Positions 4,233 to 14,767 of a stretch of 21,840 bases of DNA are shown one piece after another (the first letter of the stretch is position 1; every line of letters begins with the position of its first letter). Origin of the DNA: a virus; IMG/VR virus record IMGVR_UViG_3300037247_000335, positions 1 through 21,840 of that record. One strand, written 5' to 3'. The position numbers and the translations under genes were made by a program. The notes under the pieces are model-generated. The model did no database searches and had not been told where the DNA came from. It worked only from the letters and a program-made list of their open reading frames with translations.

Positions 4233-4922
4233 TTAAGATTCGAGGATAGCTTTTCTATCGGCCTCTGCTTCTGGATTTAAAATCTTGTCTAATTCAGACT
4301 TTATAGTTGTTCTTTCTGTATCTGTCAATGTTATATCGTCAAGCCTTTTCGCCAGTATAGTCGCTCTATCCTTCTGTGTCAAGGATAATCCATTTTGAGT
4401 GGTCTTTGCTATCTTACCGGGAATAAGCCCTAATGCTTCTCGCTTCTTTGTCAGCCCCCCAACAAATTTAAACATCTGTCCAATAGCTCCACCGAGTTCG
4501 GCAAATGACGGCATCCTATCAGTAGGTAAGCCAAAACTTGATACTCCGGCAGCACTTGGTCTGGTAATCCTTTTAGGCGGAATACTTACATTAGAAGGCA
4601 TACCTACAACTTCTGGTATAGGTTTTCCTTGAAAGGTATTAGTGAACCTTTCCTCGCCTTCCGGCTCTAAACCAGTAAACCTTTTCTTTAACGGTGTGGC
4701 TATTTCTTTTATACCTTCGGTGGCTAATCCAAGATCAACTGGCTCTACTGGCTCAACTCTCCCCTCTAAACCTCTGGTCTGAATTCCAGTCTTCTTAGGA
4801 GTTGGTCGATTTACTTTTGTGCTAAAAGGCTTCTTTTTTGTGCTTAAAAAATTAGTTATAAAATCTGGTAGCCCTTTTTCTCTTTTCTTCTGAGCTATTA
4901 ATAGTTCTCTATTAGTTGGCAT
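4233..4922 (-). CDS. Basic hypothetical phage protein, 229 aa, possible internal or ejected protein
   Basis: I do not recognise a family. The start overlaps the upstream stop as TAATG at 4922-4924, so translation is probably coupled. An AAGGA-like site lies in the end of the upstream gene. The N-terminal 60 residues are Lys/Arg rich (KKREKGLPDF, TKKKPFSTK) and likely disordered. The middle is Pro/Gly rich. Residues about 140-165 contain a short Gly/Phe-rich hydrophobic patch (ELGGAIGQMFKFVGGL). The C-terminus (LTQKDRATILAKRLDDI onward) looks helical, with alternating Thr-Asp-Thr-Glu. It sits between the coiled-coil virion protein and the giant polyvalent protein, with only 15 nt to the latter, so I infer a structural or ejected partner of one of them. 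A minor tail or internal core protein is possible. Coding status is well supported by context; function is unknown. Confidence 0.7.
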   Translation of the reverse strand: MPTNRELLIAQKKREKGLPDFITNFLSTKKKPFSTKVNRPTPKKTGIQTRGLEGRVEPVEPVDLGLATEGIKEIATPLKKRFTGLEPEGEERFTNTFQGKPIPEVVGMPSNVSIPPKRITRPSAAGVSSFGLPTDRMPSFAELGGAIGQMFKFVGGLTKKREALGLIPGKIAKTTQNGLSLTQKDRATILAKRLDDITLTDTERTTIKSELDKILNPEAEADRKAILES

Positions 4923-6778
4923 TATATAGTTCCTTCCTCAGTGGATAATCCACCTGACTCAATGCTGGCAATCGTGCTGAATCCACTCATAACTGCGGCT
5001 GTTATACTTACATAAGCACTTGCTATGCCTTTAGCGGCTTCGAGTCTTAGGTTTGCGGTTGATAATAAGGCTTGTAGATTCGCCTTTGCGTTTTCCAGTC
5101 TAATATTTGTATTTTGTAAATCAAGGGCACGGCCTTTAATTAATGTTTCCACTCCTAGTTCAAGCTGAGCTACATCTTTTTGTAGTTCCGCACGAAACTT
5201 ATTTACATCATGTCCGTACATTATGGCTTCCTGAGATAGTTCGATATTTGCTATTCCTATCTCTGCTTTATATCTTTCTATATTACCAAGATATGCCCGT
5301 AGTTCTAAATCTTGTAATTTAACGTTCTCAGTTACCTTTGCAATTTCTATATCTGTCTGGACTTTTAAAGTATTTACTCTTGTGTTTTCAGCTTGAAGCT
5401 CGGCGGTATATATAGTAATTTTACCGAGTTCGCCTTTAACTTGTGCCTCATAAAGCAATGCTTCATTCCGTTGTGCATCAAGTCTTGATTTATAATCATT
5501 AATATTTTCTTTGTATAAATCTATCTTTAATCCTTCAATCCCAAGAGCTATTTGTGCAGCCCCTTGTTCTTCTTTGAATAATTTCAAAAAGGAGTTATAC
5601 CTCTCTATGTCCAGATTATATTCAGCTAATAAATCTTTATCAAGGCCGGATTTTGCCTGAATCTCTAATAATGCAGTTCGGTATTCTTCAAGCTTTAATC
5701 TCTCGCCGTCCAACCGTGCGCTCTGTTCAATTGCCTGAACTTTAACACGTTCTAGTTGTATATTATAATCTGAAATCTTTAAATTATGAAAAGCTATGCC
5801 GAATTCCATAACAGCCCTTGCGGATTCAAGTGATCTATTAGCTACTTCGTTTGCATGATTGATCTCTAACTCTTCAAGTGATAGTGAGGATGTTATCGTA
5901 AAATGAGTATTTGTCTGAGCAAGTTCGGCTTGTTTGATAAGGATATCCCTTGATCTTTCAATCCTTTGGTTTCTATCATCAACTATAAGGTCTTGATGCA
6001 GGTTTGTAAGTACTCCATCTGGTAATCTAAATCCTTTACCACTCCACCGACTATTAACCTTGGCCGCAGCTTCTACATAATCCTTCTCGTCTCTTTCTCT
6101 TGTACGTTCCCATATAGCGTCTTCAACTTCGGCTGACAAGCCCGTTCCTCCGTTTTGAACATCACTTAATAGCTTTGTCCCTAAAGCATCCTTTAGGGCT
6201 GACGTATACTCCGACTCTACATAGCTGAATTCAATATCTGGCAATGTAATGTTATACGCCGGGATAGGGTCGCCAAAATCTGCAATAACAACGCTTGGCG
6301 GCGTTGGTATTGAATAATTTCCTATGCTTGTTAATTTATCGGGTACTGTATCAGTAGGTGCTACCGCATTTATTACGTCTGCTATGAACGGTTTATTAGC
6401 AGGTAATTCTGTCGTAAAACTCGGCGCATCTGGTAATGTAATCGTTGGTTTGGTAATTTCTTTTTCGTCTAATGTAGGATAATTAGTATCTACCGTAGAG
6501 ACGGTGAATTCATCTGCCGGAGGCGTTGCTATTCTTGCTTTAATTATATCTATAGCAGTGGTTGGTCTATCGGGTGCAACCGCACTTATTGGAGGAACAT
6601 ATATGCTTATATTACCGGGAAGTGTAAGTCCTACTTGTGGAGCAGTTGCTAGAGCCGCATCACGGAGAGCATTTAAGAAAGCCTCTGAATTATTACTGGC
6701 CTTATTTGCTCTGTCATTAGCGTTGTCTATTTGTTTATTCACAGCCGCAACCGTAGTCGCAATATCTGGATTTGGCAT
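4922..6778 (-). CDS. Large coiled-coil phage virion protein, 618 aa
   Basis: Residues 1-70 are Ala/Asn rich and helical. Residues about 70-200 are Pro and beta rich with repeated short segments of the type PTITLPDAPSF. A block near residues 215-275 (AIWERTRERDEKDYVEAAAK, then GKGFRLPDGVL) resembles a segment I know from large tail-module proteins of unknown function in proteobacterial phages. Residues about 270-570 are a nearly unbroken helix or coiled coil rich in Glu, Leu, Ala and Asn. The last 30 residues (GIASAYVSITAAVMSGFSTI) are small and hydrophobic and could insert in a membrane or pack as an oligomerisation helix. It starts at 6778 with an AAGGAG site that codes for the last residues of the fibre gene, 3 nt after its stop. 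Its stop overlaps the next start. A rod, stalk or ejection-conduit role is inference only. Confidence 0.75.
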   Translation of the reverse strand: MPNPDIATTVAAVNKQIDNANDRANKASNNSEAFLNALRDAALATAPQVGLTLPGNISIYVPPISAVAPDRPTTAIDIIKARIATPPADEFTVSTVDTNYPTLDEKEITKPTITLPDAPSFTTELPANKPFIADVINAVAPTDTVPDKLTSIGNYSIPTPPSVVIADFGDPIPAYNITLPDIEFSYVESEYTSALKDALGTKLLSDVQNGGTGLSAEVEDAIWERTRERDEKDYVEAAAKVNSRWSGKGFRLPDGVLTNLHQDLIVDDRNQRIERSRDILIKQAELAQTNTHFTITSSLSLEELEINHANEVANRSLESARAVMEFGIAFHNLKISDYNIQLERVKVQAIEQSARLDGERLKLEEYRTALLEIQAKSGLDKDLLAEYNLDIERYNSFLKLFKEEQGAAQIALGIEGLKIDLYKENINDYKSRLDAQRNEALLYEAQVKGELGKITIYTAELQAENTRVNTLKVQTDIEIAKVTENVKLQDLELRAYLGNIERYKAEIGIANIELSQEAIMYGHDVNKFRAELQKDVAQLELGVETLIKGRALDLQNTNIRLENAKANLQALLSTANLRLEAAKGIASAYVSITAAVMSGFSTIASIESGGLSTEEGTI

Positions 6779-6781
6779 TGT

Positions 6782-8302
6782 TTATCTCCTTTTCCTGATT
6801 GGTTCTGTCAATATCTCTATAGAATCAATTTCTAAAGTAGAACCGTTTATATTTGATACTCCAAAATTAAAATGTCTATCTTTTATGCCTTTCTCAAACT
6901 TAACCCGACGTTCGTGTATAGTGCTTGCTGTGGTTGGTGTTATAAAGTAAGTCCGTGGATTTATTTCATCTCCAACACTAAATAATTGAATATCACCGTC
7001 TGAACGGAAACTTAAATATACGTCTCTAAGTCTTTGTATTTCAGTTGTGTATATATCAATAGCACCTGTTTTATAACTTGCGTCTATTTGTGTGCCGTTA
7101 TCATTATCTCCGCCAGCTTCATAAATCCCGGATGAATTAGCGTATAGATATTTTCCGTTAAATAAACACATGCTGTTAAACCCGAAATTAGTATATTCAC
7201 TTATAGCAAAATTTCTTGTATTAGTCACTATAATTCTTATGTCATTTGTAACATTAATACTTGGAGCATGTATACTTAAGCCTGTTTCCTGTGATATCAT
7301 TGATATACCCGGTAATAATAATATAGCATCTCCTGATATAATAGGAAGACCGGGGATCGCCATACTAAAAGCCAGTGGTAATAAGCTTATAAAAACATCT
7401 GCCCCGGCAATAATACCTATTCCTTCTTGTAATAAGCCAAGTGTTAATTCGTCAGGTATTACAATAGTATCTGATATTAATATAGCAGTATTCAGACCAC
7501 CTGATAAAGATAAAACAGAGGCTGAGAATATAACATCAACGCCAGTAAGGGTTGGAGTGGGCATTGCTCCTGTTAATGATAAATTAACCACCTCTACGGT
7601 TATATCAGGAGGCACTAAATCCAATCTACCATTTATATTATTTGTTTCAATACCAGATATAAATCCTTCTATAACACTTACGTCTTCACTTGTCTTTACC
7701 GTTGATGTGAACTGACCTGATTGAAGGTATAACTTATTATCTATATTTCCGCCCCATGGAGTATTGGTACCGTCATATGATATACCAGAAGGTTTATCTA
7801 TAACACTTACGTCTTCACTTGTCTTTACCGTTGATGTGAACTGACCTGATTGAAGGTATAGTTTATCGAAAACCTGCCCGGTAAATGGAGTATTGGTACC
7901 GTCATATGATATACCAGTTGGTACACTATCAATTCCCCCAATGAATTCACTTGTCTTTAACGTTGATGTGAACTGACCGCTTTGAAGGTATAGCCTATCG
8001 CCTACAAATCCGCACCATGGAGTATTAGTCCCATCCCATGATATACCAGATGGGGCGGTTTCAATTGCCGTAATTAATTGGCTTGTTTTTAAAGTACTGG
8101 TAAATTGTCCACTTTGCAGGTAAAGCTTAGCATCGGTATTACCACCCCAAGGAGTATTGGTTCCATCCCACGATATACCATAAGGAACAGCGTCAATTCC
8201 CCCAACGCTTTGACTGGTTTTAATAGTTGACGTGAATTGCCCACTTTGCAGGTATAGTTTATCATCGTTATATCCAATCCAAGGGGTATCGTTAAGAGCC
8301 AT
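6782..8302 (-). CDS. Tail fibre-like protein with five N-terminal repeat modules and a conserved phage C-terminal domain, 506 aa
   Basis: I chose ATG 8302 (MALNDTPWIG) rather than the ATG at 8317. A GGAG site lies 9 nt before 8302, and the paralog at 9519-11129 begins with the same MAL-DTPWIG. Residues 1 to about 215 are five modules of about 43 residues with the pattern GIS(W/Y)DGTNTPW...KLYLQSGQFTST(L/V)KTS, which looks like short propeller blades or a beta-solenoid. Residues about 225-345 are degenerate beta-stalk repeats (IVIPDELTLGLLQ type). The last about 140 residues, from NFAISEYTNFGFNSM to IEILTEP, match a C-terminal domain I recognise from many phage tail proteins of unassigned function. 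The gene overlaps the glycosyltransferase gene by 11 nt. A host-contact or tail-tip role is inferred from architecture and position. The C-terminal domain is absent from the paralog. Confidence 0.8.
   Translation of the reverse strand: MALNDTPWIGYNDDKLYLQSGQFTSTIKTSQSVGGIDAVPYGISWDGTNTPWGGNTDAKLYLQSGQFTSTLKTSQLITAIETAPSGISWDGTNTPWCGFVGDRLYLQSGQFTSTLKTSEFIGGIDSVPTGISYDGTNTPFTGQVFDKLYLQSGQFTSTVKTSEDVSVIDKPSGISYDGTNTPWGGNIDNKLYLQSGQFTSTVKTSEDVSVIEGFISGIETNNINGRLDLVPPDITVEVVNLSLTGAMPTPTLTGVDVIFSASVLSLSGGLNTAILISDTIVIPDELTLGLLQEGIGIIAGADVFISLLPLAFSMAIPGLPIISGDAILLLPGISMISQETGLSIHAPSINVTNDIRIIVTNTRNFAISEYTNFGFNSMCLFNGKYLYANSSGIYEAGGDNDNGTQIDASYKTGAIDIYTTEIQRLRDVYLSFRSDGDIQLFSVGDEINPRTYFITPTTASTIHERRVKFEKGIKDRHFNFGVSNINGSTLEIDSIEILTEPIRKRR
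7668..7860. repeat. 64-bp perfect direct repeat within the fibre-like gene
   Basis: Positions 7668-7731 and 7797-7860 are identical over 64 bp, with a period of 129 bp (43 codons), matching one protein module. The flanks differ at the first base on each side, and further copies nearby are more diverged. Confidence 0.9.
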
Positions 8303-8942
8303 TTGTGTATACTCCATGAAATGCCCGTATTACTTCGTGCATTTCAAGTTCATTAAAATGTTGACATCTGTAATTGTAATGAGTAAAAATTTCAAAACCG
8401 TTTTCGGTTGCTCTTTCGCAAAAACTTATATCATTGCCTTTATTTACGGTTCCATCTGTATTTAGCTTTCTGGTAAAGGCTCCCTTTCTCATTTCAGGGT
8501 GGTCAAATACCCTACGTGCAATAAGTATACATCCAGTGCCTACTGCATCAACTTTTTGTAATCCTTGTTTTATCGGATATTCTTTATAGGCGTTTTCATC
8601 CTTGATATATTGGTATGCGTTTTCGTACCAAGGACGTTCGCCTTTGATCTTGTCGGTGAAATGATAAATAGGAGTCGGGCATCCTATGATATCCTTGTCA
8701 AGCTCGATTAAATCTAAGGGGTTGTTCATGGGCGGATTATCTGCATCAATATTTAACCAGTAATCATAATTACCACTGATAAAATCATTGACTATATGAT
8801 GTAGATTGTTTTCATATGGACTATGAGTAGGCACGATAATATTACAATCATACCTACGGTCGCTTAATAATCTCGTCGCTGTTATGAGAATTAGCTTATG
8901 TATCCAGCCTGTATTAGGAAATGATATTAATACTTTTTTCAT
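8292..8942 (-). CDS. GT-A fold glycosyltransferase, 216 aa
   Basis: The N-terminus (KKVLISFPNTGWIHKLI) and following 60 residues fit the nucleotide-sugar-binding half of a GT-A (GT2-like) enzyme. The metal-binding DxD motif is DAD at residues 66-68, within WLNIDADNPPMNNPLDL. A later GTGCILIARRVF segment and GNDISFCERATENGFEIF match the acceptor-side and (E/D)D.(D/S)FC blocks of these enzymes. Expected activity is transfer of a sugar from an activated donor; donor and acceptor cannot be read from sequence. The start overlaps the upstream stop as TAATG, and its own stop lies 11 nt inside the next fibre gene, so it is translationally tied to both. Its position between two fibre paralogs suggests it modifies virion or host-surface material. 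It lacks any membrane segment, so it is probably cytoplasmic. Confidence 0.85.
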   Translation of the reverse strand: MKKVLISFPNTGWIHKLILITATRLLSDRRYDCNIIVPTHSPYENNLHHIVNDFISGNYDYWLNIDADNPPMNNPLDLIELDKDIIGCPTPIYHFTDKIKGERPWYENAYQYIKDENAYKEYPIKQGLQKVDAVGTGCILIARRVFDHPEMRKGAFTRKLNTDGTVNKGNDISFCERATENGFEIFTHYNYRCQHFNELEMHEVIRAFHGVYTNGS

Positions 8943-9496
8943 TACGCATTATCCTTAAGAGTAATTCCTTGTTCTTTTTTTGCAGTAGCCCAGTTCTTCC
9001 TAGTATTTTTAGAAACACCGGGTTCGGTTAAATCATCGGGGTCTAATGCTTTTGATATTTTAATATCAATTGCGGCGGTATCCTGAGATACCGCAATCTT
9101 TAAACTTCTTTGAATGTTTAGACCGTTAAGAACTTCGGAATCAATTTTTTCATCGGGTTCGTGAGCGTGTGCTTTTACATCATGGAATGTCTCAAATTCA
9201 GCCGGAGTTATTGCACTGACTTTATCCGGGAATAAACTCAAGGCTTCGGTTGCAAAATCCTGTGGTACACACATGCAACAAATTTGCTGACCAAATGGAG
9301 ACTCAACGGAATCTTCTTTATGGCCACTGGTCTTGTCGTAATGCATACCGCCGCCATGAACATCTAAATACTTAGACCAATCCATACCTTTGCGAGTGCT
9401 ATCTGATACAAGGTTAAAATTAGGATATAATGCGTATCCGGTTATAGGGTCAATCCCTACGTTTAACTTTAAAGGTACTAAATTCCTTGTAGCCAT
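8942..9496 (-). CDS. Conserved phage protein of unknown function, 184 aa
   Basis: The start at 9496 has AAAGGAGA 7 nt upstream. The N-terminal half contains GMHYDKTSGHKEDSVESPFG followed by QQICCMCVPQDFATEAL. The C-terminal half has FHDVKAHAHEPDEKIDSEVL and ends with a basic GVSKNTRKNWATAKKEQGI segment. I recognise this layout from phage tail-region proteins that have no assigned role. His-rich and Cys-rich stretches (HGGGMHYD, CCMC, KAHAHEPDE) could bind metal, but no classical finger is present. It lies between the first fibre-like gene and the glycosyltransferase and overlaps the latter start by TAATG. A virion or fibre-assembly role is inferred only from position. Confidence 0.75.
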   Translation of the reverse strand: MATRNLVPLKLNVGIDPITGYALYPNFNLVSDSTRKGMDWSKYLDVHGGGMHYDKTSGHKEDSVESPFGQQICCMCVPQDFATEALSLFPDKVSAITPAEFETFHDVKAHAHEPDEKIDSEVLNGLNIQRSLKIAVSQDTAAIDIKISKALDPDDLTEPGVSKNTRKNWATAKKEQGITLKDNA

Positions 9497-9518
9497 TTCT
9501 GTTCTCCTTTATATAAAA

Positions 9519-11129
9519 TTAAATTATTCTAGTTTTATAACTCGTCATAAAAGCCCTAAGTGTTAGCATCGGCAAGGGTTTTGAAAAAGTCAGGTTATCG
9601 GAATTATACCCGGAAGCTGATAGAGATAGCAAGGGTAAAGTTCTATTAAATGTCATGGGTGAAGAAAATACCATATTCGCACTTAGCGTCATCATGGGTA
9701 GTGTACTGGCAAAACTATGGAGGCCGCCTGTGTTAAACACTGCATTTAATTCCAGCATTGGCAAGGAGTTCGTAAACGTAATGGCGTTTCCTCCGGTTAA
9801 GGTCGCACTCAACGTCATTAACGGTAAAGACTTGACAAGACTTCCTATATTTGACTGTGATAAAGTTGCAGATAACGTCAGTATTGGCAGTACATGACTT
9901 ACCTTAGTACCCATTCTAACTGTTAGCGTCATCATAGGTAGTGTACTTGCTGAATTATAGGTTTCACCATTAATCAGTGTTGCGCTTAGCTCAAGCATCG
10001 GCAACTTACTACTGAAATTCATTGTAGATGCTATTAATATTATTGGCGTTGGTTGTGATAATGCCAGAGCTTGTTCATCTGGTAAAACAGAAAAAACATA
10101 TGTTGGTGATGGTTGTGCTAATCCAAGTATTAATTCATTCGGCGTTATTGTTATGTCAGTCGGTATAACAATCGTTGGAGTTTCTAGAGCTAATCCTAGA
10201 GGTAATTCGTTAGGAGTTACTATAACATCTATGTTTATAGTTGGTGCTGGTAATGCCGTAGAAAGAGTGAGTTCGTTTGGTGTTACTGTTACGTTCCCCG
10301 GAATTAATATAGTTGGGGTTTCTGCCGTTGTTGTAAGAGTAAGAGCCGCTCCAATAACCACTGTCTCGTAATTCGTAATACTTGCCGGGGATAAGACGGC
10401 TACTGTGAGGGTTAATTCATTTGGAGTTACAGTTATATCTCCCCCAACGCCTAGTCTGGCGTCTATATCATTAGTGGATATATCTTCGATTGCGAGTTCT
10501 ATGCCGCTTACATCCTCAGATGTTTTCAGCGTAGAAGTAAACTGGCCTGATTGCAAGTATAGTTTATCGGCTTGCGTTCCTGCCCACGGAGTATTGGTGC
10601 CATCCCATGATATGCCAGTTGTGGAGTTTTCAACGGATAAAACATCCTCAGATGTTTTCAGCGTAGAAGTAAACTGGCCTGATTGCAAGTATAGCTTGTT
10701 TGAATTACACCATGGAGTATTGGTGCCATCGTATGATATTTCATTTACATTGCTTGACACACCGCTTACATCCTCAGATGTTTTCAGCGTAGAAGTAAAC
10801 TGGCCTGATTGCAAGTATAGTTTATCGGCTTGCGTTCCTGCCCACGGAGTATTGGTGCCATCCCATGATATACCAGAAGTAAACTGGTCGATAACACCTA
10901 TAGCTTCACTATCTTTAACAGTTGTTGTAAATTGTCCTGAGACAAGATATAACTTGTCGTTGGTATTGCCAATAACTGGCGTATTAGTGCCGTCCCAATC
11001 TATTCCTTTTGGAAAAATTTCATATGAAGTAGTAAGTTCACTTGTTTTTAACGTAGACGTAAACTGTCCAGACGTAAGGTATAGCTTATCACCATCACTG
11101 CCAATCCAAGGGGTATCTGTTAAAGCCAT
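9519..11129 (-). CDS. Repeat-built tail fibre-like protein, 536 aa, paralog of the 6782-8302 product
   Basis: The start at 11129 follows AAAGGA and lies 11 nt past the previous stop. The protein is almost wholly repeats of three kinds. Residues 1 to about 215 are five modules (TPWAGTQADKLYLQSG, TSTLKTSEDVSG, GISWDGTN) nearly identical to those in the 6782-8302 protein. Residues about 225-350 are copies of a 25-residue unit around (V/I)T(V/I)TPNELTL followed by PTI.I. Residues about 355-536 are seven or more copies of a unit of about 27 residues around LPM(L/M)TLSA. The last two kinds resemble beta-stalk repeats of phage fibres. It lacks the C-terminal NFAISEYTNF domain of its paralog, ending in a basic SYKTRII. 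Two modules are encoded by a perfect 110-bp DNA duplication. Adhesion or fibre function is inferred; the repeats themselves are plain to see. Confidence 0.8.
   Translation of the reverse strand: MALTDTPWIGSDGDKLYLTSGQFTSTLKTSELTTSYEIFPKGIDWDGTNTPVIGNTNDKLYLVSGQFTTTVKDSEAIGVIDQFTSGISWDGTNTPWAGTQADKLYLQSGQFTSTLKTSEDVSGVSSNVNEISYDGTNTPWCNSNKLYLQSGQFTSTLKTSEDVLSVENSTTGISWDGTNTPWAGTQADKLYLQSGQFTSTLKTSEDVSGIELAIEDISTNDIDARLGVGGDITVTPNELTLTVAVLSPASITNYETVVIGAALTLTTTAETPTILIPGNVTVTPNELTLSTALPAPTINIDVIVTPNELPLGLALETPTIVIPTDITITPNELILGLAQPSPTYVFSVLPDEQALALSQPTPIILIASTMNFSSKLPMLELSATLINGETYNSASTLPMMTLTVRMGTKVSHVLPILTLSATLSQSNIGSLVKSLPLMTLSATLTGGNAITFTNSLPMLELNAVFNTGGLHSFASTLPMMTLSANMVFSSPMTFNRTLPLLSLSASGYNSDNLTFSKPLPMLTLRAFMTSYKTRII
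10504..10871. repeat. 110-bp perfect direct repeat within the fibre-like gene
   Basis: Positions 10504-10613 and 10762-10871 are identical over 110 bp, with a spacing of 258 bp (86 codons, two modules). A third partial copy at 10642-10694 shares 53 bp. The repeats are in-frame and code for the five-module region. Confidence 0.9.
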
Positions 11130-11140
11130 TTATTTTTCCT

Positions 11141-11965
11141 TTAAGTTACTGTGATAGTTTTTGTTTTTGTAGCCAGACATTTGTATTTTATAAAATCCCA
11201 ATCCGGGTCTAACAGCCAAGGAACACCCCAAGGCGTACTAGACGTAACTACTGCCGTCATTACTTCTCCGGTTGCCGTTGCTCGTACTATTTGCACTGAT
11301 CTTGTAGGGTTGCTGGGACTTACTGTGATTTCAACTGGCTCTCCATCAATAGTGACTGTTATATCGTCTACGGTGAAAAGGGGTAATACTTCTAAACTAA
11401 AAGATAAATCTCCTAGTGCTTTTTTGGTACCATTGGTGTCTATAGTAAAAACTGCCTCGGTAGTTGAAAGGCTAAATGATGCTAAATTATAGTGGCGATC
11501 CGCATCATCTAAATCTTGTTCTGACGAATATAATGTAGTATCGAATTCCCCGGCATTAGGATATATATGGTTTCTCTGACTGCCCACACTACCTATAAGT
11601 TCAGTTGTTCCATCCCCGAAAAGCCAATATCCCCAAACCCCTGTTCCCGGTGGGTCGATTTCTTTCTTGTCTACCCAATGTTGGTAGGTAAAGCCTATTT
11701 GAAATGATGCCGGGAAAGCGATAGGCACTTCCTCGAAATCGTTCTTACAGCCTTTCAATTGAACTACCGCTATCCTTATCCAGTCAATATTATTAACTGA
11801 TCTTACGTGGACGGCAACTCCGGTCACTGGCCGGAAAACCTTATTCGCTATACCTGTAACGGTAAGATTTTTGATTCTATCCAGTGCCTTTATTGCCCAC
11901 GGAATCCACTTTTTAGCAAGTATTGTATTACCTTGTAATATCAGCTTAGGAGCAGTTGTTCTCAT
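11141..11965 (-). CDS. Phage virion protein with PKD-like domain, 274 aa
   Basis: I chose ATG 11965 (MRTTAPKLIL) over the upstream in-frame ATG at 12028, because AGGGG sits just before it, right after the previous stop, while the longer start would overlap that gene by 53 nt. Residues 113-147 carry YWLFGDGTTELIG and HIYPNAGEFDTTLY, the (W)(D/L)FGDG and H.Y...G.(Y/F) signature of a PKD (Ig-like) fold. Residues 1-70 contain KVFRPVTGVAVHVRS and DWIRIAVVQLKG beta strands; residues 195-274 look like a second beta-sandwich. Cytoplasmic synthesis without a signal peptide fits a virion part rather than an exported protein. The position between small virion proteins and the fibre-like gene suggests a tail accessory or adhesion protein. 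The PKD call is by pattern only. Confidence 0.7.
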   Translation of the reverse strand: MRTTAPKLILQGNTILAKKWIPWAIKALDRIKNLTVTGIANKVFRPVTGVAVHVRSVNNIDWIRIAVVQLKGCKNDFEEVPIAFPASFQIGFTYQHWVDKKEIDPPGTGVWGYWLFGDGTTELIGSVGSQRNHIYPNAGEFDTTLYSSEQDLDDADRHYNLASFSLSTTEAVFTIDTNGTKKALGDLSFSLEVLPLFTVDDITVTIDGEPVEITVSPSNPTRSVQIVRATATGEVMTAVVTSSTPWGVPWLLDPDWDFIKYKCLATKTKTITVT

Positions 11966-11975
11966 ATAAGCCCCT

Positions 11976-12410
11976 TTAAGATGCTGGCATAGTCTGATCC
12001 CAAGTATCAATGGTCTGAGTCGCACCACTTACAATACTTACGCTGCTCATATTGATATCAGCATTACTTGTACCTACGGTACCTTGCATTCTGATTTCAG
12101 TCGTACTCAATACTCCTGTATCGGTATTTACTACCATGCGGAAATAACTAGCAGTACCACTTGCACTGGCTACCGCACTCCATACATCACTGTTCTTACT
12201 AATAACTCCTGAACTGGCGGAGGCTGCAAAATGACAATGTGTATCTGCATTATCACTGCCGATACTTACAAGCAATGTACCTTCTGCATCATCCGCACTT
12301 GACGGAGCTACACCGGAATATATTTTTACCCGGCTTGCGTCTAAAAGAGTTTTAAACGGAGATGTATCAAGCATCCCGTCTCTTAATCCTGTACTAAGTT
12401 TTAAAGCCAT
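11976..12410 (-). CDS. Small conserved phage virion-type protein, 144 aa
   Basis: The start at 12410 has GGAGG at good spacing. The sequence MALKLSTGLRDGMLDTSPFKTLLDA, then RVKIYSGVAPSSADDAEGTLL, and later DLNMSS-type and TIDTWDQTMPAS blocks follow a layout I know from small tail-region proteins of many phages. Most of the rest is Ser/Thr/Ala rich and beta, as in fibre or decoration parts. It follows the 139-residue protein after 40 nt and precedes the PKD-like protein by 10 nt. The leader shares a short repeated sequence with that of the previous gene. The exact role is unknown; a structural role is inferred from family pattern and location. Confidence 0.75.
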   Translation of the reverse strand: MALKLSTGLRDGMLDTSPFKTLLDASRVKIYSGVAPSSADDAEGTLLVSIGSDNADTHCHFAASASSGVISKNSDVWSAVASASGTASYFRMVVNTDTGVLSTTEIRMQGTVGTSNADINMSSVSIVSGATQTIDTWDQTMPAS

Positions 12411-12450
12411 TGTAATCCTCCAAAATTAAATGTTAATTGATATAGTAGTA

Positions 12451-12870
12451 TTATGTTAATGTTATAATACCATTGGCGTGCCATTGGATAGTAAACGTAC
12501 CTGCGGTAACTGTCTTGACTCCACCAAAATCAAATGAACAAATAAGATCATCAACCGTTGGCGTTGTGATTGAATCATCCCAAAGAACGGCGTGATATGC
12601 GCTGAAAGTAGACGAAGTCCATGCTGTATCGGCACCGTCAAACTTAGTTGTTGCGCCTTGGGTTACTGCGGCACTTGCTAGTGTGGCTCCGCCAGCCGTA
12701 TAGCCCCCTGACGTTGGTAATTCATTTGCTGATACGTCAGCCCATACGTTATCCGTGGCGGAAAAGGTGTGTACGTTATCCATTAGAGACACTTTAATTA
12801 CGTCTGCCTCTAAGTCAATAGCTTTATTCATTAAATTTGCTTTGAACTTTTCATATATTCCAGATGCCAT
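12451..12870 (-). CDS. Small conserved phage virion-type protein, 139 aa
   Basis: The start at 12870 has AGGAGG 8 nt upstream. The N-terminus MASGIYEKFKANLMNKAIDLEADVI, followed by VSLMDNVHTFSATDNVWADVS and a C-terminal SFDFGGVKTVTAGTFTIQWHANGIITL, is a pattern I recognise from a widespread family of phage structural proteins. The protein is beta rich with no Cys, no membrane segment and no catalytic motif. It is the first gene after the 59-residue protein and has a 113-nt leader containing a stem-loop. Together with the next gene it appears to form a pair of small virion proteins. The family is well conserved, but its place in the particle is not known to me. Confidence 0.8.
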   Translation of the reverse strand: MASGIYEKFKANLMNKAIDLEADVIKVSLMDNVHTFSATDNVWADVSANELPTSGGYTAGGATLASAAVTQGATTKFDGADTAWTSSTFSAYHAVLWDDSITTPTVDDLICSFDFGGVKTVTAGTFTIQWHANGIITLT

Positions 12871-12939
12871 TTTGCAATCCTCCTAAATTAGATGTTAAAA
12901 AAAGTAATATTTTTCACTTAGCATCAATCTGAGAGTTTT

Positions 12940-12963
12940 GCGGTTGGAATATCCAAGAGTCGC
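12940..12963 (-). other. Stem-loop in the leader of the 12451-12870 gene
   Basis: On the minus strand TTGGA-TAT-TCCAA forms a 5-bp stem extended across an internal loop by GCG/CGC. No U-run follows, so it is not a standard terminator. The rest of the 113-nt gap (12871-12983) shows an AT-rich stretch and an AGGAGG site, with no clear promoter pair. An mRNA structure or protein-binding site is possible. Confidence 0.35.
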
Positions 12964-12983
12964 AAGTCAAACTTAACTATGTG

Positions 12984-13163
12984 TTAATTGATATTATGAG
13001 TAGATTTAAACTTATTAATCAACTCAATTGAGGGGGCATGTACTATTACATCTTGCCTCCCACACGGGTGTGTGATTTCTTCTATAATAGGGTCTATAAT
13101 TAATATCTCCTTACCATCAACTATTTTTTTTCTTGCTTTAAAATTCAAAGGTTTCTTGTCCAT
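12984..13163 (-). CDS. Small hypothetical phage protein, 59 aa
   Basis: ATG at 13163 lies 3 nt after the upstream stop (13167-13169), with GGGAG in the end of that gene at good spacing. The frame is open for 59 residues and ends in TAA at 12984. The sequence begins MDKKPLNFKARKKI, has DGKEILIIDPIIEEITHPCG and ends ELINKFKSTHNIN. It is basic at the N-terminus with one Cys and a likely beta-hairpin plus a short helix. The tight spacing and ribosome site make it a believable gene despite its length. I do not recognise a family. Confidence 0.65.
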   Translation of the reverse strand: MDKKPLNFKARKKIVDGKEILIIDPIIEEITHPCGRQDVIVHAPSIELINKFKSTHNIN

Positions 13164-13166
13164 GTA

Positions 13167-14081
13167 TTACTCCCATAAAGTTGTAATGTATTGAGATAAC
13201 CCATTTTTATCCCGGAAAAGCCCGGCTCCAAATCTTTTATTTGGAATGTTAAACTTACCGTCTGTTATATTGATAAATCTTCCAGAATTGCCGCCAATAC
13301 AAATTCCTCCGTCAGATGCCCACATAACAACCGTTCCAGAAAGTCCTTCGCCGATCTTACTGGCATCTTTAATCTTTACGTCTGAACCTTCAATACATCC
13401 ATAACTGGCAAAACTCCTTAAAGTATAGTCTTCTACGACTGCGCCTTGTATGAAATAAGTATTTTGCCTATTAATATCGCCAATACAAATCCAAATGCCG
13501 TCATCTACGGCTTGCATCATAGTTATTTCATTTTCAAACTGGATGAAATTATATCGTCTATCTACTTGATTGAAGTAATTTACGTCTGTATACCAAATGG
13601 TTTCGTTTTTCGCAATATAAATCCTGCCGTTGAAATATTCTATGTGTTGGCCGGGTAATGGAGCGAACTTGTAATCCTCGGTAGGGTCTGTAAATAAAGT
13701 ATTGACTCCGTTTTCAATGTACCCTATTACTGCCGGGTTGGTGTAGTAATACTTGTCGTTTACTTCAACATAGCTCATATGATAGTTCGACACACCTGTT
13801 CTTAATGTCGAACTCGTATAATCTTCGTGGAGTCTTTTTAGAACCCCATTATCTACATAGAAACACATCTTATTATCTCCGTACATACTATGCCCTTTAA
13901 TTGTTGTTACTTTCTTCGTGTTTCCGGCTCTCCGGGAAGGACGACCTTTATCAGAAATATCTATATTATAAGCATATACCAGTTGGTGTTGTTCCAGTCT
14001 TGCAGGGTCTATAACATTATTTACGCCAGACACCGTGCCTATTTTAATAGTGTTAGATGATATATCTAAATTACGGGTCAT
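13167..14081 (-). CDS. Propeller-like conserved phage virion protein, 304 aa
   Basis: The start overlaps the upstream gene by 11 nt and follows GGAG at 8 nt. The order of motifs is that of a common phage tail-region protein: GVNNVIDPARLEQHQLVYAYN near residues 19-39, SDKGRPSRRAGNTKKV, LRTGVSNYHMSYVEVNDKYYY near 93-115, PLPGQHIEYFNGRIYIAKN, FIQFENEITMMQAVDDGIWI, and MWASDGGICIGGNSGRFINIT near 255-275. Repeated aromatic beta strands with (Y/F)(F/Y).(G/N)(R/G)(I/L)Y patterns fit a beta-propeller. Homologs I recall usually have an extra middle segment, so this copy may be on the short side. It opens the tail and adhesion module. A structural role in the tail or tail-head joint is inferred; no catalytic motif is visible. 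Confidence 0.75.
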   Translation of the reverse strand: MTRNLDISSNTIKIGTVSGVNNVIDPARLEQHQLVYAYNIDISDKGRPSRRAGNTKKVTTIKGHSMYGDNKMCFYVDNGVLKRLHEDYTSSTLRTGVSNYHMSYVEVNDKYYYTNPAVIGYIENGVNTLFTDPTEDYKFAPLPGQHIEYFNGRIYIAKNETIWYTDVNYFNQVDRRYNFIQFENEITMMQAVDDGIWICIGDINRQNTYFIQGAVVEDYTLRSFASYGCIEGSDVKIKDASKIGEGLSGTVVMWASDGGICIGGNSGRFINITDGKFNIPNKRFGAGLFRDKNGLSQYITTLWE

Positions 14082-14284: not shown

Positions 14285-14686
14285 TTATAATTCCTTTGCA
14301 TTGGATAGTTCCTTTTTCTTTTTTCGTCTTCTCTGTCTTGCGTGGAGCTTTGCGTGACAGTTGAAGCATAAGCATACACACTTTTTCAACTCTTTAATGA
14401 GAGTTGCGGGGGCATGTCTACCCCGTGATACCACACTGATAGAAAACTCTTTATTACTTGGAATCTTATGATGTGCACAAAGACAATCATAGTTTTTCTC
14501 AGAACATCGAGTACATCCATTCTTTCTAAACTCGGCAACAAGCTTACCAGCTTCAATTGAATAATCCTTGCTTTTGTTTGTTACTAATAGTCTCTGGCGG
14601 TTTCTATATTCGTTATCAGTCCAATATTTATTTTTCCGCCATTTCCTTTGATATTCCCGTTGCTTTTCTTTGTCTTTATAAGCCAT
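14285..14686 (-). CDS. HNH endonuclease, 133 aa
   Basis: The N-terminus MAYKDKEKQREYQRKW is typical of small phage HNH proteins and is basic, suited to DNA binding. The nuclease core has C58/C61 (CTRC), H72-H73 (CAHHK), and a second metal-site cluster CFNCH at 107-111 followed by H115. This is the treble-clef ßßa-metal fold arrangement, with the HH as the catalytic start and the CxxC pairs holding structural zinc. The C-terminus is a run of Arg and Lys. The ATG lies only 8 nt after the tRNA and has no Shine-Dalgarno; the TATAAT at the tRNA edge is described as a finding. It may be a free-standing homing nuclease or serve DNA packaging; being far from a terminase in this window favours the former. 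Confidence 0.85.
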   Translation of the reverse strand: MAYKDKEKQREYQRKWRKNKYWTDNEYRNRQRLLVTNKSKDYSIEAGKLVAEFRKNGCTRCSEKNYDCLCAHHKIPSNKEFSISVVSRGRHAPATLIKELKKCVCLCFNCHAKLHARQRRRKKKKELSNAKEL

Positions 14687-14694
14687 ATATATTA

Positions 14695-14767
14695 TAACGG
14701 CGGCAGGAATCGAACCTGCTCATATCAGGGATATGAACCCTGCGACTTCCCATTTGTCCACGCCGTA
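14695..14767 (-). tRNA. tRNA with CAU anticodon, initiator-like (tRNA-Met)
   Basis: A 73-nt cloverleaf can be folded by hand. The acceptor arm TACGGCG pairs with CGCCGTT in six of seven positions, leaving T1-T72 unpaired. The D-arm is GAC/GTC with A14, G18, G19 and A21 in place. The anticodon arm is CAGGG / CCCTG with loop TTCATAT. The T-arm is GCAGG / CCTGC with loop TTCGATT. The discriminator is A and no CCA is encoded. Unpaired 1:72, A11:U24 and three G:C pairs at 29-31:39-41 are the three bacterial initiator features. The gene starts 1 nt after the stop of the adaptor gene and ends 8 nt before the HNH start. Elongator Met or a lysidine-modified Ile tRNA remain possible. Confidence 0.85.

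Follow-up and report, generated by a model that had tools for sequence, protein, structure and literature searches.

The stretch of DNA studied here, hereafter the window, is the 21,840-base virus record IMGVR_UViG_3300037247_000335, which we analysed as DNA and predicted proteins only. Its minus strand encodes two paralogous proteins, termed P1 and P2, each of which begins with a predicted beta-propeller head, and between them two further proteins, termed GT216 and orf184, which recur beside propeller genes of the same family in other phages. Along the minus strand the order is SU10-type portal, major head protein, head-closure-like protein, PKD-domain protein, P2, orf184, GT216, P1 and orf618, with smaller open reading frames (ORFs) interspersed. 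An initial annotation, made by a model from the sequence alone, had given the coordinates, strand and starts of P1 and P2, all of which are correct; the ATG of P1 at 8302 agrees with the starts of its relatives, and another in-frame ATG lies upstream at 8317. The genes and domains at issue are these (aa, amino acids; nt, nucleotides):

6782..8302, minus strand: P1 gene, 506 aa, with a five-module head, a stalk and a KPP25-type C-terminal domain
7616..8296, minus strand: predicted five-bladed propeller of P1, residues 3-229 (modules, AlphaFold, VIA)
6812..7252, minus strand: C-terminal domain of P1, about residues 351-497 (phrog_26502 / PDB 26gp_Q)
8292..8942, minus strand: GT216, probable GT-A-like glycosyltransferase and cassette member, with an 11-nt overlap with the P1 start
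8942..9496, minus strand: orf184, conserved partner protein and cassette member, recurring beside propeller genes
9519..11129, minus strand: P2 gene, 536 aa, with a five-module head, stalk repeats and an LPMLTLxA C-terminus
10446..11123, minus strand: predicted five-bladed propeller of P2, residues 3-228 (modules, AlphaFold, VIA)
9522..10061, minus strand: conserved C-terminal part of P2, ending in RII (alignment of loci)

As the initial annotation had it, P1 starts with MALNDTPWIG and P2 with MALTDTPWIG, and a module hidden Markov model (HMM) detected the proposed five modules, of 42-44 aa, in each protein. The shared N-terminus extends across P1 residues 1-288, over which the two proteins are 61% identical. 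At the DNA level, a 139-nt unit is present in six copies within and between the P1 and P2 genes, the other five being 63-72% identical to the reference copy. We rejected the idea that the module repeats are due to chance, since the repeated DNA units and the HMM modules speak against it. Two modules of P2 (window 10504-10876, minus strand) are 99% identical over 115 nt, which suggests that blades within the P2 gene were copied or converted not long ago.

The HMM was trained on a first set of loci and then run on 62 non-redundant ORFs. Among 49 complete related ORFs, 47 carried 5, 10 or 15 modules (37 five, 7 ten and 3 fifteen), and multiples of five were found in 14 of the 16 complete ORFs from loci added after the HMM had been fixed (L047 onward in our locus numbering). 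In the 54 units listed, each set of five begins at or near DTPW and lacks the GISWDG strand at that point, and most sets end in GIxTNDxxxRLG. When modules with a gap at that position were left out, xDG occurred in 210 of 246 inner modules vs none of 40 fifth modules. These counts and the end signature of the fifth module indicate that the longer proteins consist of several complete rings in a row, each of five modules; a serine-rich linker separates the rings of L049.

The AlphaFold models of P1 and P2 showed blocks of about 78-95 mean pLDDT (predicted local distance difference test) across residues 1-230. Analysis of the models with DSSP gave four-stranded blades, with the strand lacking in blade 1 coming from residues 214-218. 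The best VIA match of both models was the glutaminyl cyclase 3mbr (Z 19.7, 2.5 Å, 193 residues for P2; Z 19.3, 2.8 Å, 194 residues for P1), and a further match of P1 was 3nol (Z 19.1, 2.6 Å, 193 residues), which is described as five-bladed in a paper on phage phi11 Gp45 (PMC4876445).

Two results count against a closed five-bladed ring. The VIA Z of six-bladed NHL domains was lower than the best by no more than about one unit, at 3.5-4.3 Å, and the models alone therefore leave the blade number unsettled. In addition, two of the 49 complete ORFs (L091 and L092) have four modules, which would favor an open solenoid, extended and variable in length. The two ORFs are closely related to each other. 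Each holds modules absent from the other, a pattern that fits loss or assembly collapse of different blades from one five-blade gene. Against a solenoid stand the counts in fives, the distinct end on each fifth module and the confident ring-like models, and we regard it as extremely unlikely. The counts and the fifth-module end support a closed ring apart from the models, and the AlphaFold/VIA prediction agrees with both. The five-bladed propeller suggested in the initial annotation is thus supported; the AlphaFold prediction that it had proposed for the N-terminal regions gave ring-like models and no extended solenoid in either protein. We conclude that the P1 and P2 heads very probably are five-bladed rings.

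The B-C and D-A loops of a propeller are found on a single face. When strands and loops were assigned from DSSP of the predicted models, the mean entropy over 378 modules was 2.77 bits in the B-C and D-A loop columns and 0.59 bits in the A-B and C-D turns; restricting each of the 57 loci to a single module gave 2.61 vs 0.51 bits, and the same order was obtained in 200 of 200 draws. The ratio of nonsynonymous to synonymous change (pN/pS), computed on 341 of the 378 modules, was about 0.7 in loops vs 0.15-0.28 in the scaffold. The 806 least similar pairs gave 0.69-0.70 in loops vs 0.28 in the scaffold, with synonymous sites saturated, and loop values above 1 (1.8-2.3) appeared only in the seven most similar pairs, as binned by scaffold identity. 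These values indicate either relaxed or diversifying change in the loops; positive selection is not established.

A rigid scaffold whose ten variable loops share a face is well suited to binding, and it is likely that the heads bind receptors, with a lectin or adhesin function being plausible. Alternatively, the propeller might have a catalytic or a purely structural role, given that the folds closest to it, those of glutaminyl cyclases and of NHL or YWTD domains, include enzymes. However, the blades are near-equivalent on a conserved scaffold, no single odd blade is conserved across the propeller family, and the variability is concentrated in the loops; moreover, the five-bladed phage protein phi11 Gp45 is needed for adsorption, according to PMC4876445. 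We consider this alternative quite unlikely.

The receptor-binding protein Gp45 of the Staphylococcus phage phi11 (PDB 5EFV) also has a five-bladed propeller. Proteins of the Gp45 type are marked by a trimeric state in the baseplate and by a saccharide cavity. The HHpred match of Gp45 is the glutaminyl cyclase 3NOL (PMC4876445), which is also among the best structural matches of the P1 and P2 heads, and its cavity is proposed to hold N-acetylglucosamine (GlcNAc; PMC4876445, PMC6115969). The Gp45 propeller is central (residues 160-420, PMC4876445), whereas that of P1 and P2 is N-terminal and has near-identical blades; P1 and P2 have GT216 as a partner, whereas no glycosyltransferase partner of Gp45 is mentioned in the passages of PMC4876445 and PMC6115969 consulted. 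The six-bladed NHL and YWTD propellers, which were Foldseek's first matches, share with the P1 and P2 heads four-stranded blades of 40-45 residues and a GI-x-x-D-like inner strand, but have six blades rather than five. Lectins of the tachylectin-2 type are built from five blades of almost the same sequence, each about 47 residues long, and their sugar sites (GlcNAc or GalNAc) are repeated from blade to blade. Neither 5EFV nor tachylectin-2 was among the structure matches listed, a result that excludes neither.

A tblastn search of 50,697 phage records, run with P1 and P2 as well as with three divergent propellers and one stand-alone propeller, found no propeller; only the stalk and C-terminus of P1 were matched. 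GT216 relatives are present in 52 of these records, of which 51 are Synechococcus phages; no record has a relative of orf184. One scan of bacterial genomes yielded four propeller loci, all in metagenome-assembled genomes. No propeller was found in plasmids, and a search of viral contigs with P2 found nothing, probably owing to poor search patterns. A profile of 46 propellers had no match among solved chains at E 0.1, and a Pfam scan of the 46 members, also at E 0.1, had no NHL family among the first 25 of the 28 families matched. Weak Pfam and NCBIfam matches to CopB, YjbF, GCV_T_C and ATP synthase gamma were judged to be compositional noise. Distant structural look-alikes occur among predicted viral proteins, including one encoded by a cultured Lentibacter phage, which shows that the fold also exists elsewhere.

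With respect to the C-termini, the initial annotation was right that the NFAISEYTNF domain belongs to P1 alone, but P2 has a conserved C-terminus of its own, made of LPMLTLxA repeats that end in RII and alignable over six loci (the window and five others). The C-terminal domain of P1 matches phrog_26502 (E 1.6e-16) and PDB 26gp_Q (E 1.1e-7); phrog_26502 was absent among the matches listed for P2. Neighbouring genes also have relatives among solved chains or mark the locus:

4922..6778, minus strand: orf618 (phrog_10969), structural-region neighbour and marker of the KPP25-like locus
11976..14081, minus strand: KPP25-like neighbours, relatives of the solved chains 26fb_K and 44nx_B
13167-14081, minus strand: Hc3-like protein, matching 26fb_K
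11976-12410, minus strand: 144-aa protein, matching 44nx_B

The chains 26gp_Q, 44nx_B and 26fb_K have 620, 147 and 398 residues, the lengths of ORF005, ORF006 and ORF008 of Pseudomonas phage KPP25 by coordinates, and on this ground they are probably parts of a KPP25-like virion. KPP25 ORF005 (phrog_26502, probably 26gp_Q) has the C-terminal domain seen in P1, and the gene order is similar. In KPP25, however, ORF006 and ORF005 are adjacent, with no space for P2, orf184 or GT216; KPP25 was not matched by the propeller, P2 or orf184 in the phage-record searches, and it is absent among the GT216 matches listed, all of which are Synechococcus or marine.

Some further features of this region may be recorded. 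The PKD-domain protein (11141-12028, minus strand; PF00801, E 3.1e-5) lies directly upstream of P2, and its relatives upstream of P2-type genes are 278-446 aa long and only partly alignable. A 133-aa ORF within the structural region (14285-14686, minus strand) has Cys and His pairs and, by eye, an HNH-type or zinc-binding look, and a tRNA-Met gene (anticodon CAT; 14695-14767, minus strand) is situated among the structural genes. The promoter count of the window was 1.5 standard deviations above that of shuffles and the terminator count was close to expectation; neither was used as evidence.

The contig L043/L110 retains both C-termini (39% over P2 253-536 and 49% over P1 233-506) and differs in both N-termini, which are a Laminin_G_3 domain (E 3.4e-15) in the P2-type protein and another, unassigned domain in the P1-type protein. 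Neither orf184 nor GT216 was found in it. Because the C-termini are kept while the N-terminal domains change, P1 and P2 look like proteins with a C-terminal anchor and an exchangeable N-terminal head. Most tail fibres have the opposite polarity.

The P1/P2 pair is kept together in three other contigs (L001, L002 and L003), and we therefore rejected a duplication confined to this phage lineage. The propeller tree, in which most forks are poorly resolved and L013 and L097 received their P2 label from neighbouring genes alone, is not sorted by C-terminal type; the labels cluster no more than expected after shuffling (of 500 shuffles, 113 and 120 were as low), and separate clades of P1 and P2 propellers are thus unsupported. 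Together with the conserved pair and L043, the tree supports one part of the earlier proposal of duplication with module swapping, namely duplication with exchange of N-terminal domains. In L014 (13157-13731), no more than about 580 bases separate GT216 from the orf618 relative, a gap that suggests that the P1-type gene is missing there.

One could envision that only one of the two proteins is a working adhesin, the other being a decoy or a head for a second receptor. The retention of paralogs with different C-termini in the window and in L001-L003 would agree with such a division, as would the module numbers, which are 5, 10 or 15 in P2-type proteins vs 5 in all four P1-type proteins. On the other hand, the scaffold is equally intact in both heads, and we think a division of this kind unlikely.

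The initial annotation had called the two genes between P1 and P2 unrelated. Contrary to this description, orf184 and GT216 are conserved partners of the propeller in many unrelated uncultured phages. Of the 62 propeller ORFs, 45 have both genes within 3 kilobases (kb); among the 27 with flanks of 3 kb or more on both sides, 24 do so. The three loci that miss (L062, L011 and L100) lie on contigs that bear GT216 and orf184 elsewhere (L151, L152 and L184). In 39 of the 45 cases a partner is at most 100 bases from the propeller. The commonest order is orf184, GT216, propeller, and the propeller comes first in L017, L030, L050 and L102. As a control for kinship, we grouped loci by the number of other genes that they share. 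The cassette was present in 17 of 20 groups at two or more shared genes, in 23 of 26 groups at three, and in 8 of 10 groups at one; as there are only 10 groups at one shared gene, some phage kinship remains in these counts.

The reverse survey, of the best 80 GT216 loci, found orf184 and the propeller at 47, orf184 only at 8 and the propeller only at 1. Among the eight loci with orf184 only, five end shortly behind the glycosyltransferase gene (L123, L147, L153, L159 and L167); a divergent five-motif gene adjoins in L180, another large protein in L150, and in L184 a propeller lies farther along the contig. Divergent five-repeat genes also stand beside GT216 in L160, where the repeats were counted by eye, and in L166. 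From this gene neighbourhood, the propeller, orf184 and GT216 almost certainly form a functional cassette. A literature survey of partial coverage, judged by titles and the starts of abstracts, found no description of such a cassette. Separately, L173-L179 are distant GT216 relatives without orf184 or propeller, and in L173 the relative follows a protein that by eye resembles a GT-B glycosyltransferase, which hints at a second use.

GT216 is probably a GT-A-like glycosyltransferase. Residues D66 and D68, which form a DxD, are invariant in 31 of 31 aligned members, and DxD is a motif of GT-A / GT2 glycosyltransferases. The window protein has weak matches to Pfam Glyco_tranf_2_3 (E 0.16) and phrog_12406 (E 0.012). 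In L002 and L049 the GT216 domain forms one protein with a methyltransferase, and in L020 and L027 with a GT-B-like domain that scores below the Pfam cut-off.

Two substrates come into question. The GT216 gene lies in the structural region and overlaps the start of P1, which favors the adhesin or virion, and we give action on these an even chance. Alternatively, GT216 might alter a glycan of the host surface, in which case the head would bind this glycan and GT216 would hide it in the late phase of infection; progeny would then not be wasted on debris or infected cells. Masking explains equally well why head and enzyme move together, and distant GT216 relatives are found in cyanophages. The position of the gene, however, fits co-production with the adhesin better, and we find the masking of a host glycan rather doubtful.

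Taken together, P1 and P2 would both serve as virion adhesins in a KPP25-like podovirus, each carrying a closed five-bladed propeller at what we infer to be its outward-facing N-terminus. The constant scaffold with its ten variable loops would allow retuning to cell-surface targets, most likely glycans, and the C-termini would hold the proteins to the virion, P1 by the domain shared with KPP25 and P2 by its LPMLTLxA repeats. The propeller would move between phages with orf184, which may serve as an assembly partner, and with GT216, which would most likely glycosylate the propeller or fibre during production; a candidate site is the Ser/Thr-rich outer strand SGQFTSTLKTS, conserved in every blade. 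An exchange of outward-facing adhesin heads in one cassette with an enzyme, of which they are probably the substrate, seems to us reasonably probable. A stronger form is offered tentatively, as possible and no further: a mobile self-glycosylating cassette, spread across unrelated uncultured phages, in which a glycan on the Ser/Thr-rich outer strand of every blade would build a five-fold crown with a protective or tuning effect on the head, the choice of host being left to the hypervariable loops of one face.

Several results weigh against this reading. Neither partner is present at 24 of the best 80 GT216 loci, which suggests that the enzyme also works elsewhere. Only 6 of the 31 GT216 members matched Glyco_tranf_2_3 (best E 2.5e-4), and the GT216 profile had no match among solved chains in the PDB. 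Head exchange rests on one contig, L043/L110, and the stalks and C-termini of P1 and P2 have low AlphaFold confidence beyond residue 230.

Five-bladed phage adhesins are known; the propeller family described here has no credible match in Pfam, NCBIfam or the annotated phage genomes searched, and it comes in a portable unit that includes a probable glycosyltransferase. Near-equivalent blades with one variable face would lend themselves to the study of changes in specificity. If GT216 does modify the adhesin, host recognition in these phages would include a post-translational step dedicated to the head and transferred along with it.

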